DNA from: Sutcliffiella horikoshii DSM 8719
GTDB taxonomy: Bacteria > Bacillota > Bacilli > Bacillales > Bacillaceae_I
Length of the DNA stretch: 64,000 nucleotides
NCBI GenBank assembly: GCA_001648575.1
Contig: LQXN01000062.1
Coordinates: 62,001-126,000 of the forward strand
Direction: 5' to 3'
Shown here: in pieces, positions 4,463 through 50,325 of the stretch
How the letters are laid out: each line of letters starts with the position of its first letter
Position numbering within the stretch: position 1 is the first letter of the stretch
The notes under the pieces: model-generated
The model's input: only the letters and a program-made list of their open reading frames with translations
Told to the model about the DNA's origin: nothing
Database searches by the model: none
Program-made: the position numbers and the translations under genes

Positions 4463-4585
4463 TATGTATTCCCCCTAATATTTTTCCTGTGTTCCCAAAA
4501 AATATCATGTTCACTAGGATTTGTCTAGTTTCTAAGGCAAAAAGGCAGTAACCATTGTTGGTCCTGCCTGTATGTTGCATTTAGT

Positions 4586-4707
4586 GTTGATTTGCGTTTC
4601 TGGTGCTTCGCTTTCCGCGGGGCTCCCTTGAGCCTCCTCGCGCCCTGCGGGGTCTCAAGAATGTCGCTATCCCCCCGGAGGAGTCTTCACGCCTTACACT
4701 ACAATCA
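4586..4707 (-). repeat. Core-only relic of the terminator-associated repeat (copy 1)
   Basis: A GC-rich stretch begins GTTGATTTGCGTTTC, runs through GCTTCGCTTTCCGCGGGG, AGCCTCCTCG and CCTGCGGGGTCT, and ends in TTACACTACAATCA. It matches the core of the four complete copies at 6988, 24055, 26260 and 50090. It lacks the CAGACTGTTGACAAA-type ends and the flanking duplicated hairpin. A weak terminator-like hairpin (GGCAG...CTGCC, about 4543-4568) lies on one side only. The strand sign is nominal. It appears to be a decayed or truncated copy. Confidence 0.75.
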
Positions 4708-6961: not shown

Positions 6962-6987
6962 AGCATAGAGAATGGTCTCTATGCTTT
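6962..6987. repeat. Left copy of duplicated terminator hairpin, element copy 2
   Basis: The stem AAGCATAGAGA / TCTCTATGCTT (6961-6986, loop ATGG) is repeated at 7197-7222 with four substitutions. After this copy the plus strand runs straight into the element (CAGACTG...) with no U-tract. On the minus strand the hairpin is followed by TTTTCC. The left stem is fully paired although its sequence differs from the right copy. Confidence 0.85.
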
Positions 6988-7196
6988 CAGACTGTTGACA
7001 ACCTATTAAGCAGAAAAGTTATTGTTTGGAACAGTTGATCTCCGTTGCAGGAGCTACGCTTTCCGGCGGGCGGTCCGTAAGCCTCCTCGGCTACGCCTGC
7101 GGGGTCTTACATGTCCCTTCCTCCCGCGGGAGTCTTCGCTCCTTCCACTGCGATCAACTAGGGAATTTCATTATTCTAAGGTTTGTCTACACGGTG
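6988..7196 (+). mobile_element. Terminator-inserted MITE-like element, copy 2
   Basis: This 209-bp non-coding element begins CAGACTGTTGACAA and ends TTTGTCTACACGGTG. The ends are imperfect inverted repeats. The core starts with GTTGATCTCCGTTGCAGGAGC, ends with GCTCCTTCCACTGCGATCAAC-like sequence and folds back on itself, with GGCGGTCCGTAAGCCTCC and CCTGCGGGGTCTTACATG in the middle. It lies between the convergent AraC and D-amino acid aminotransferase genes, between two copies of their shared terminator hairpin. No transposase is present; it would have to move in trans. Confidence 0.8.
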
Positions 7197-7222
7197 AGCC
7201 CAGAGAATGGTCTCTAGGCTTT
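7197..7222. terminator. Right copy of the duplicated hairpin, with U-tract, element copy 2
   Basis: The stem AGCCCAGAGA / TCTCTAGGCT has one mismatch and is followed on the plus strand by TTTTTCTG, so it can stop transcripts from the AraC gene after they have crossed the element. The stop codon of the aminotransferase gene (7214-7216 on the minus strand) lies inside this hairpin. Confidence 0.8.
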
Positions 7223-24020: not shown

Positions 24021-24054
24021 AAGCAAATCTAATCTTTAGGGATTAGATTTGCTC
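24021..24054 (-). terminator. Left copy of the duplicated terminator hairpin, with U-tract, element copy 3
   Basis: A perfect 13-bp stem (AGCAAATCTAATC / GATTAGATTTGCT, loop TTTAGG) is followed on the minus strand by TTTTTTATATT. The 34-bp segment is repeated exactly at 24264-24297. This distal copy keeps the U-tract for transcripts of the CAP-domain gene. Confidence 0.9.
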
Positions 24055-24263
24055 CAGATTGTTGAAAAACTATAAATAAGTTAAGTTATCTGTTGGAACA
24101 GTTGATCTCCGTTGCAGGAGCTACGCTTTCCTGCGGGCGGTCCGTAAGCCTCCTCGGCTTCGCCTGCGGGGTCTTACATGTCCCTTCCTCCCGCGGGAGT
24201 CTTCGCTCCTTCCACTGCGATCAACTAGGAAGTTTCATTATTTTAAGCTTTGTCTACACACTG
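24055..24263 (+). mobile_element. Terminator-inserted MITE-like element, copy 3
   Basis: This 209-bp element begins CAGATTGTTGAAAA and ends TTTGTCTACACACTG. It is close to copy 2 along its whole length, including GTTGGAACAGTTGATCTCCG and CGATCAACTAGGAAGTTTC. It sits between two exact 34-bp copies of a terminator hairpin, between the CAP-domain gene and the YkgA-like gene. It carries no gene; short open frames in it are repeat artefacts. Confidence 0.85.
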
Positions 24264-24297
24264 AAGCAAATCTAATCTTTAGGGATTAGATTTGCTC
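24264..24297 (-). repeat. Right copy of the duplicated terminator hairpin, element copy 3
   Basis: This is an exact 34-bp duplicate of 24021-24054. On the minus strand the hairpin is followed by TTCAGTGTG rather than a U-tract, so CAP-gene transcripts would be expected to read through into the element. Confidence 0.9.
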
Positions 24298-26234: not shown

Positions 26235-26259
26235 AGCAGCTTTCCCATAGAAAGCTGCC
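26235..26259 (-). terminator. Left copy of duplicated terminator hairpin, with U-tract, element copy 4
   Basis: The stem GCAGCTTTC / GAAAGCTGC (loop CCATA) is followed on the minus strand by TTTTTGATG. The 25-bp segment recurs exactly at 26480-26504. Confidence 0.9.
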
Positions 26260-26479
26260 CAGACTGTTGACAAAGCCCTAAATATTTTTAGATTTGCACC
26301 CTGCTGTTGATCTTCGTTCCAGGCGCTTCGCTTTTCGCGGGCGGTCCGGAAGCCTCCTCGGGCTTACGCCCTGCGGGGTCTTCCATGTCCCTTCCTCCCG
26401 CAGAAGTCTGCGCGCCCTCCACAACGATCAACACAGGTTTTGCATATCTCAAAGATAAAATAACTTTGTCTATACACTG
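26260..26479 (+). mobile_element. Terminator-inserted MITE-like element, copy 4
   Basis: This 220-bp element begins CAGACTGTTGACAAAG and ends CTTTGTCTATACACTG. Its core runs from GTTGATCTTCGTTCCAGGCG to CCACAACGATCAAC. It lies between exact 25-bp copies of a terminator hairpin, between the PfpI-family gene and the Gfo/Idh gene, both on the minus strand. Confidence 0.85.
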
Positions 26480-26504
26480 AGCAGCTTTCCCATAGAAAGC
26501 TGCC
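26480..26504 (-). repeat. Right copy of duplicated terminator hairpin, element copy 4
   Basis: This is an exact duplicate of 26235-26259. On the minus strand it is followed by CAGTGTATAGAC, not a U-tract. Confidence 0.9.
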
Positions 26505-40669: not shown

Positions 40670-40884
40670 CTGACTCTCTCCTGACTTATTTTACGCATAA
40701 TACTAATATTTTTGTTTAGAACGTATCACCTTTACCATTATACCTCTTCTAATTATGAAGTCCTATATTTCCTTTATTCTACCTATTTAGAGATCTTAAA
40801 CCTAATCCACAAAAAGAGTTTCACTATCAGAATAAACAATCTATTATGCTTTCCCATTATTCTGTGGTATATTAGTTAAGCGAT

Positions 40885-40998
40885 GAGCTGAATTGTGTAA
40901 GTCGAGGGACACGCTCTTTGAGCAAGGCATGAATGTGGTCATGCTGTCCCTCGCCTCAATACGCACGAAGGCACCTTTATAGGTGCCTTCTTTTTTTT
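40885..40998 (+). ncRNA. Candidate structured small RNA (three-way junction plus terminator)
   Basis: A closing stem GAGGGACA (40904-40911) / TGTCCCTC (40945-40952) encloses two hairpins. These are GCTC-TTT-GAGC (40913-40923) and GCATGA / TCATGC (40927-40944). A perfect 10-bp terminator GAAGGCACCT / AGGTGCCTTC with eight Ts follows at 40967-40998. A TATATT box lies at about 40869. The 370-base gap (40670-41039) has no convincing open frame. The next gene has its own extended -10 (TGCTATACT), so this looks like a free-standing RNA rather than a leader. I do not recognise an Rfam family; the 5' end is a guess. Confidence 0.5.
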
Positions 40999-50064: not shown

Positions 50065-50089
50065 AGGCCGGGAACTGGTTTCCCGGCCT
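50065..50089 (-). terminator. Left copy of duplicated terminator hairpin, element copy 5
   Basis: The stem AGGCCGGGAA / TTCCCGGCCT (loop CTGGT) has a minus-strand U-tract (TTTTTGTCG). The 25-bp segment recurs at 50301-50325 with one substitution. Confidence 0.9.
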
Positions 50090-50300
50090 CAGTGTGTAGA
50101 CAAAGTTCAAATATGATAAAAATCCCTAGTTGATTGCAGTGGAAGGCGCGAAGACTCCCGCGGGAGGAAGGGACATGTAAGACCCCGCAGGCGTAAGCCG
50201 AGGAGGCTTACGGACCGCCCGCAGGAAAGCGAAGCGCCTGGAACGAAAATCAACTGTTCCAACAGATAACTTAACTATTTTTTAGTCTGTCAACAGTCTG
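50090..50300 (-). mobile_element. Terminator-inserted MITE-like element, copy 5 (reverse orientation)
   Basis: This 211-bp element starts CAGTGTGTAGACAAAG and ends CTGTCAACAGTCTG, the reverse orientation of the other complete copies. Read on the minus strand it shares GTTAAGTTATCTGTTGGAAC and the GTTGATTTTCGTTCCAGGCG core start with copies 3 and 4. It lies between the convergent small membrane gene and the VOC-family gene, inside a duplicated terminator. Confidence 0.85.
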
Positions 50301-50325
50301 AGGCCGGGAACTGATTTCCCGGCCT
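50301..50325 (+). terminator. Right copy of duplicated terminator hairpin, element copy 5
   Basis: The stem AGGCCGGGAA / TTCCCGGCCT (loop CTGAT) is followed on the plus strand by TTTATAAC. It is 24/25 identical to 50065-50089. Confidence 0.9.

Follow-up and report, generated by a model that had tools for sequence, protein, structure and literature searches.

Known targets of IS1182-family elements

The target duplications of DDE transposons normally comprise a fixed number of a few bases, which is set by the enzyme. For the IS1182 family, the duplication range given in ISfinder is 0-60. Hairpin targeting by IS1182 elements is already known (PMC5678879; PMC4923244), and target duplication in this family is described in the part of PMC12056078 covered here as variable or absent in general. 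IS1272 and TnSha1, two members of the family, insert into hairpins that are often terminators and that have no primary sequence consensus, as do the elements reported here. According to the parts of PMC5678879 and PMC4923244 covered, these two elements remove the target stem-loop wholly or partly and form no duplication, whereas the elements described below keep the whole stem-loop and duplicate it. Joining at the 3' feet of the stem-loop, with loss of the hairpin, has been proposed for IS1272 (PMC5678879). In a published survey, which was also covered in part, IS1182 elements were over-represented between convergent genes (PMC9208149).

MITE copies in Sutcliffiella horikoshii

The window, that is, the whole stretch of DNA analysed, comprises 64,000 nt of Sutcliffiella horikoshii DSM 8719 (GCA_001648575.1, an assembly of 4.68 Mb) and corresponds to positions 62,001-126,000 of contig LQXN01000062.1 (contig C65 of the host genome, G000). 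The four elements of 209-220 bp listed in a first-pass annotation of the window were all confirmed at their positions. The elements and the hairpins on both sides of them are as follows:

6962..6987, no strand, left target hairpin copy of site 1 (target-site duplication), 23/26 identical to 7197-7222
6988..7196, + strand, MITE copy 1, 209 bp, with the ends CAGACTGTTGACAAC...TTTGTCTACACGGTG
7197..7222, no strand, right target hairpin copy of site 1
24021..24054, no strand, left target hairpin copy of site 2, 34 nt, 34/34 identical to 24264-24297
24055..24263, + strand, MITE copy 2, 209 bp
24100..24226, + strand, G+C-rich inner part of MITE copy 2, AGTTGATC...GATCAACT, which folds as a long stem (bounds set by eye)
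24264..24297, no strand, right target hairpin copy of site 2
26235..26259, no strand, left target hairpin copy of site 3, 25 nt, 25/25 identical to 26480-26504
26260..26479, + strand, MITE copy 3, 220 bp, of the 220-bp subfamily
26480..26504, no strand, right target hairpin copy of site 3
50065..50089, no strand, left target hairpin copy of site 4, 25 nt, 24/25 identical to 50301-50325
50090..50300, - strand, MITE copy 4, 211 bp, in inverse orientation to copies 1-3
50301..50325, no strand, right target hairpin copy of site 4

Recounting gave the same identities as the annotation for sites 2, 3 and 4, and the value of 22/26 that it had stated for the hairpins at 6962/7197 was corrected to 23/26. 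A MITE-related partial repeat, with no full element, is present at window positions 4585-4707 (C65:66585-66707). When the whole window was scanned at the Rfam 15 gathering scores, no match to the element was found; the sole Rfam match in the window was the BsrF small RNA (RF01411, 90.5 bits) at 40880-40987.

A BLAST search with MITE copy 2 detected at least 42 places in the host genome. With up to two mismatches allowed, the left-end pattern has 193 occurrences, 84 on one strand and 109 on the other, compared with 9 for the reversed control pattern. Copies with both ends number 41 in two whole contigs (698,654 bases), or about 275 when scaled to the genome. The family comprises roughly 190-280 copies in the host genome. 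Its members have the features of MITEs: they are 147-221 bp long, contain no transposase gene, have both ends in 51 of 52 clusters and are flanked by a duplication in 40 of 51. An alignment of 42 copies revealed subfamilies of about 209 and about 220 bp, whose members have a G+C-rich core between 15-bp ends. The core forms a long stem of 31 consensus pairs, four of them with compensatory changes; this fold was obtained from 42 of the 47 copies of 195-225 bp, five atypical ones being excluded.

Repeats related to the core were also observed by eye. A second repeat (C4:107252-107700), with a related G+C-rich core and different ends, interrupts a MITE of the family; cores of this kind seem to move in combination with two or more types of ends. 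The core alone, lacking the CAG ends and the hairpin duplication, was found at L100 (genome G001, beside the ortholog of window position 26260), at L105 (G008) and, in shortened form, at L102 (G013). This stand-alone core may represent a repeat family that is older or independent. L078 in G010 contains head-to-tail repeats (positions 811-1110) of a MITE-core-related unit about 142 bp long.

Locus-specific duplication of the target hairpin

The flanks of the MITE copies were compared over 778,654 bases of the host genome, consisting of the two whole contigs and four stretches of a third contig that was chosen for its copies. The count covered element clusters with a minimum length of 150 bp (52, of which 51 have both ends), 35 shorter or partial clusters were set aside, and a flank-repeat score of 14 was used as the threshold. 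A matching flank repeat of 18-35 bp was found in 40 of the 51 copies, and 13 of these 40 repeats are perfect. When the left flank of one element was paired with the right flank of another, none of 997 shuffled pairs reached 14 (maximum 6), and chance is excluded as the source of the matching flanks. The claim that the hairpins differ between loci and match within each locus was thus borne out beyond the window, and most copies are flanked in this way, as the annotation had expected. The two whole contigs alone gave 30 of 41 copies with a duplication, and 200 kb each of two relatives (G012 and G015) gave 9 of 12. Among the 11 copies below the threshold, seven have recognisable but diverged hairpins on both sides when inspected by eye (C4 90098, 171906 and 267193; C65 181865, 241372, 262391 and 290760); truncated copies, poorly delimited ones and unclear cases make up the remaining four.

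Tandem arrays in which hairpin, element, hairpin, element and hairpin follow each other, with the hairpins shared, occur at L020, L053 and L057, so that an occupied site can be hit again. Such arrays are as expected if every insertion recreates its own target: both copies stay hairpins, and the site is therefore reusable.

The 40 MITE sites with a clear duplication lie between convergent genes (15), between genes of the same direction (22), between divergent genes (1) and inside a called frame (2). For comparison, all gaps of at least 40 nt in the simple frame calling used here comprise 93 convergent, 316 same-direction and 97 divergent ones. A gene ends at 37 of the 38 sites outside called frames, and the distance from stop codon to hairpin is less than 40 nt in 37 of 52 cases.

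Empty orthologous sites

Contig C65 contains 19 elements. For 10 of these, the stretch fetched from one or more relatives included both flanks, which allowed 15 comparisons. All four window sites have an empty orthologous site with one hairpin in a congener. In G012, seven of ten sites are empty with a single hairpin (contig coordinates 58730, 68988, 86055, 88260, 112090, 136569 and 190426), two are filled (143600 and 152256) and one (170529) is uninformative. In G015, three of five sites are empty with a single hairpin (58730, 86055 and 112090); for 112090, which corresponds to window position 50090, only part of the stretch was examined in both relatives. At the remaining two sites in G015, which is another species, the elements at 68988 and 88260 (window positions 6988 and 26260) are oppositely oriented, and each has a perfect hairpin duplication of its own (27/27 and 23/23). 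These copies are read here as putative independent insertions into the same terminator. In a third relative, G002, the sites of window 24055 and window 26260 are both empty, with one hairpin each. Near 112090, G015 contains a degenerate core repeat with no such hairpin pair in the part examined. No empty site with two hairpins was seen among these sites (7/7 in G012 and 3/3 in G015 are single). The annotation had taken the paired hairpins to be target duplications, and the single hairpins at the empty sites support this interpretation.

Probable autonomous IS1182-family partner

The IS1182 family had been pointed to as a comparison in the annotation, and a search for an autonomous transposase with CAGACTGTTGACAAA-type ends had been suggested. 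Transposase genes of the IS1182 family do sit between such ends, and the insertion sequences (ISs) that carry them themselves duplicate whole hairpins. On sequence grounds, an insertion sequence of the IS1182 family that has CAGnnTGTnGACAAA ends is the probable autonomous partner of the MITE.

A search of the host genome with PF13751 identified five places, one of which lies between CAGCTTGTAGACAAA and TTTGTCTACGGTCTG ends. This IS copy (C4:393188-394685, equal to L061:463-1960) is full-length but decayed; its frame is in pieces and scores 91.1 bits against PF13751 (cut-off 25.1). It adjoins a diverged hairpin pair in which 17 identical bases remain in one run. The second sizeable copy (C58:24792-25719) is partial, and no other full-length autonomous copy was found in the host genome. 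A single decayed full-length IS is thus present beside some hundreds of MITE copies.

Intact copies were found in relatives. At L069, L072 and L073, open frames encode transposases of 448-456 aa, which score 477.4, 482.7 and 485.6 bits, respectively, against the IS1182 model NF033551 (cut-off 270). These loci have perfect hairpin duplications of 30/30, 22/22 and 24/24, respectively. In genome G027, the four fetched copies of the IS (L073, L082, L089 and L094) have duplications of 24, 25, 25 and 21. An AlphaFold model of the transposase, based on 21 aligned sequences, was too poor to use (mean pLDDT 50.8, pTM 0.35).

The MITE and the IS share the same 15-bp end consensus, and one MITE copy (L198:11984-12192) has exactly the 15-base left end of the host IS. 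By eye, the likeness between the MITE and the host IS extends only over the terminal 15 bp and stops soon after. The MITE would be mobilised in trans, now or in the past, by an IS1182-family transposase acting on CAGnnTGTnGACAAA ends.

Length and edges of the duplication

The duplication was measured on 80 IS loci from named genomes, which are the best 80 of 500 relatives obtained by transposase alignment, several of which share a genome. The IS ends were picked by pattern only. Paired CAGnnTGTnGACAAA ends are present in 74 of the 80 loci, the second end being absent from L116, L118, L120, L125, L158 and L165. A flanking duplication is present in 66 of the 80; it is 100% identical in 64 of these 66, its length is 19-42 bp with every length from 19 to 35 represented, and its centre is the dyad of the hairpin in 65. 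Eight loci with paired ends lack a strict duplication: L121-L123 end 3 nt beyond the element, the left ends of L126 and L127 are doubtful, the wrong end was picked at L146 and L182 (23/23 each with the other end), and L168 has paired ends, no duplication and no explanation. Eleven copies of one IS, with a constant length of 1738 bp, have duplications of 19, 21, 24, 25, 27, 27, 27, 28, 28, 29 and 33 bp. No helical phase was detected in the duplication lengths (R=0.094, p ~0.56).

The outer eight positions of the duplications pair symmetrically at 8/8 in 45 of the 66 loci, at 7/8 in 16, at 6/8 in 4 and at 2/8 in 1. In 3300 letter shuffles, 8/8 was never obtained, 7/8 was obtained three times, and 6 or more in 30. 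This measure replaced the strict extent of the stem, which correlates moderately with duplication length (0.50) because pairing continues outside the strict stem. The hairpins of the host genome, when bounded by G+C pairs, have a mean length of 23.3 at element ends (sd 3.5, n=24) vs 24.3 for free terminator-like hairpins (sd 4.4, n=81); the scan for free hairpins was strict and gives no reliable figure for occupancy.

In 58 of the 66, 1-3 A/T pairs separate the outermost G:C pair from the edge of the duplication. Pairing, mostly A:T, extends beyond this edge in 52, and A is found at positions -2, -1 and 0 in 53, 53 and 55 of the 66, which indicates some sequence preference at the edge. The edge is therefore not purely the end of pairing. 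This qualifies the earlier claim that the element inserts at the base of the hairpin.

A T- or A-tract (at least 5 of 8) lies beside 57 of the 66 duplications, and neither tract is present at 9. One-sided tracts are of the same sense in 16 cases and of the opposite sense in 10, which is little bias. A T-tract of at least five in 8 nt follows the proximal hairpin copy in 0 of 66 and the distal copy in 47 of 66. The edge lies just inside the A/T tract, so the proximal copy abuts the element and never a T-tract. The hairpin is thus duplicated, but the complete terminator is not. The annotation had described duplication of a whole terminator hairpin of 25-34 bp; the whole stem-loop with, as a rule, 1-3 A/T pairs is indeed copied, whereas the T-tract stays beyond the distal copy only.

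Distribution across the IS1182 family

A class-wide search gave matches in 212 of 299 genomes, 80 of them above the cut-off, and 30 further loci were kept. Hairpin duplications (19-31 bp) are present at ten of these; three others are flanked by two different hairpins, three have CAG-type ends without a hairpin duplication, and six could not be delimited. The remaining eight (L268, L274, L276, L277, L279, L282, L283 and L285) have other ends, which are less sure in their exact positions, and no hairpin duplication. Several of them have GGGGCTGTCCCA-like ends, and CAG-pattern matches with 2-5 mismatches at these eight loci were judged to be no match. Target duplication across the family is variable or absent, with 19-42 bp in the CAG clade and no hairpin duplication at the eight loci with other ends.

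Exceptions also occur within the CAG clade. L259 has an 8/8 direct repeat and L284 a 7/7 one, both without a hairpin duplication, and L267 has none; the short repeats perhaps represent an alternative target mode. Two different hairpins, one on each side of the IS, are found at L258, L261, L273 and L288. These probably arose by recombination between copies, and such sites may mark rearrangements. Five of 1918 matching plasmid records were examined. Two have a perfect hairpin duplication, one of them (L287) being the same locus as L069; among the others, L288 has the two different hairpins mentioned above and L289 and L290 have no hairpin duplication.

A quick tree of 40 rows contains a fully supported branch with the eight rows that have other ends on one side; the 24 duplicating rows are among the 32 on the opposite side. 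The tree was built without L258 (frame too short) and L278, L280 and L281 (loci cut short). It carries a warning of long branches meeting, for example those of the eight rows with other ends and of four basal CAG rows, and only the split by end type is relied on. Hairpin duplication looks like a mark of one of the two deep branches sampled, and it appears to be old and clade-wide with exceptions.

Proposed mechanism and alternative explanations

The preferred reading, to which a probability of about 0.8 is given, is that the MITEs are mobilised by IS1182 transposases that act on CAGnnTGTnGACAAA ends, that stem-loops, most of them at gene ends, serve as their insertion sites, and that the duplication consists of the stem-loop plus, as a rule, 1-3 A/T pairs, whatever its length, with strand transfer at the 5' feet. 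The choice of target and its duplication can be seen directly in the filled and empty sites, as can membership of the clade in the transposases. The hairpin would be extruded, and each of its 5' feet would receive one of the two strand transfers; the two phosphates are distant on linear DNA and would be near each other across a four-way junction. Gap repair would then copy the whole hairpin once per side. Extrusion is suggested by the symmetry and by the absence of helical phasing; if an extruded hairpin were joined at its 5' feet, symmetry, lack of phase and a length set by the target would all be expected. As read from the sequence, the proximal copy would be severed from the T-tract and the distal copy would retain it, so that a complete terminator would remain available to each neighbouring gene, with the element added to its 3' untranslated region.

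A wider proposal is that the whole IS1182 branch reads DNA shape and not sequence or distance, integrating into extruded cruciforms at their 5' feet with a duplication as long as the hairpin; this is considered somewhat better than an even bet. If it is true, the hairpin is rebuilt on both sides, termination survives and the site can be targeted again; this would explain the copy number of some hundreds and the arrays. The enzyme would then be a DDE transposase with no constant base distance between its two strand transfers, and each copy would record a hairpin formed in vivo.

Two alternatives accept the duplication and dispense with the cruciform. The hairpin might be exposed as single-stranded DNA, at a replication fork or in an R-loop at the terminator, with the second strand joined after replication. 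Terminators are transcribed, fork-linked insertion is known for other IS families (it is mentioned in the part of PMC4923244 covered), and no observation made here tells single-strand exposure from a cruciform. However, symmetry at both edges, in all but one of the 66 duplications, is most simply obtained with both arms present together, and one-sided tracts show little orientation bias, so this explanation is regarded as unlikely. It is more doubtful still that a transposase dimer recognises two inverted A/T-rich half-sites on duplex DNA with flexible spacing, the terminators merely supplying the half-sites. The preference for A at the three edge positions and the tract beside most duplications are what such a dimer would favour. 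Yet nine duplications have neither tract, a spacing of 19-42 bp without helical phase would be hard for a rigid dimer on B-DNA, pairing spans the G+C-rich stem and not the edges alone, and the hairpins at element ends resemble free ones in length.

Other explanations concern the origin of the hairpins or of the transposase. Movement of the MITEs by a transposase outside the IS1182 CAG-end clade would fit a host genome with only a decayed IS and a partial copy, and also the scant likeness of MITE and IS past their 15-bp ends; it is held to be very improbable in view of the end consensus and the unusual hairpin duplication that both share, although such ends were sought beside IS1182-type transposases only. 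That two tandem hairpins pre-existed, with the element inserted between them, or that gene conversion later equalised them, is hardly credible: no supporting point was found, the perfect identity at 64 of 66 IS copies speaks against it, and pre-existing tandem hairpins were rejected on the single hairpins at the empty sites of G012 and G015, even with 112090 examined in part. The presence of one hairpin per end in nearly all well-preserved copies could suggest that the hairpins are intrinsic parts of the element. This is refuted by flanking hairpins that are specific to each locus yet alike on its two sides, a match that no shuffled pair reproduced, and by the lone hairpins at empty orthologous sites, and next to no weight is given to it.

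Significance of the target rule

In the elements described here, the length of the duplication is set by the target, as the range of lengths and the centring on the dyad indicate, and not by the enzyme. If the mechanism of joining at the feet of extruded hairpins is right, each insertion marks an extruded hairpin, and genomes could show whether and where cruciforms form in living cells, a question of long standing. Elements of this clade should lengthen 3' untranslated regions. The two related transposase branches, the duplicating one and the one with other ends, constitute a natural comparison pair. Hairpins beside IS1182-type genes need to be checked before they are called parts of the element. 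In the part of PMC2965389 covered, terminators upstream of ISBma2-type transposase genes were taken as intrinsic to the IS; these could be target copies if the ISBma2 group duplicates hairpins.

Comparison with known systems

bcr1 of the Bacillus cereus group, which is listed in PMC2267715, is a small structured repeat of a Bacillaceae genome, and the title of a reference cited in that paper ascribes mobile-element characteristics to it. Its duplication is short according to the first-pass annotation. ISEfa7, an IS1182-like element of Enterococcus plasmids, has a transposase 58% identical to the enzyme of L155 and CAG-type ends at L289 and at the left of L290. Unlike the elements reported here, the two copies of ISEfa7 examined have no hairpin duplication, the right end of L290 being doubtful. 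The insertion sites of ISCbo5, another member of the IS1182 family, are, all but one, hairpins at gene ends (PMC3098183), as in the present case; duplication of the hairpin, which is the rule here, is not described in the part of that paper covered.

No report of whole-hairpin duplication as a rule, or of a MITE of the IS1182 clade, was found in the open-licence literature searched. The elements do not form a new class. What is apparently undescribed is an exact target rule within a known family, in a MITE and in its autonomous relatives.

Stem-loop replacement of the IS1272 type was not found here; a hairpin is present on both sides of the element and a single one at empty sites. Terminators can thus be used as safe harbours without being destroyed, in contrast to the hairpin removal by IS1272 (PMC5678879; PMC4923244, both covered in part). 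In the model of PMC5678879 (Fig 13), pathway b, in which joining occurs at the 5' feet of the stem-loop, would duplicate the whole stem-loop at both ends. Pathway b is presented as a hypothetical alternative, with no example in the parts of that paper covered, and the elements reported here have the outcome that it predicts.
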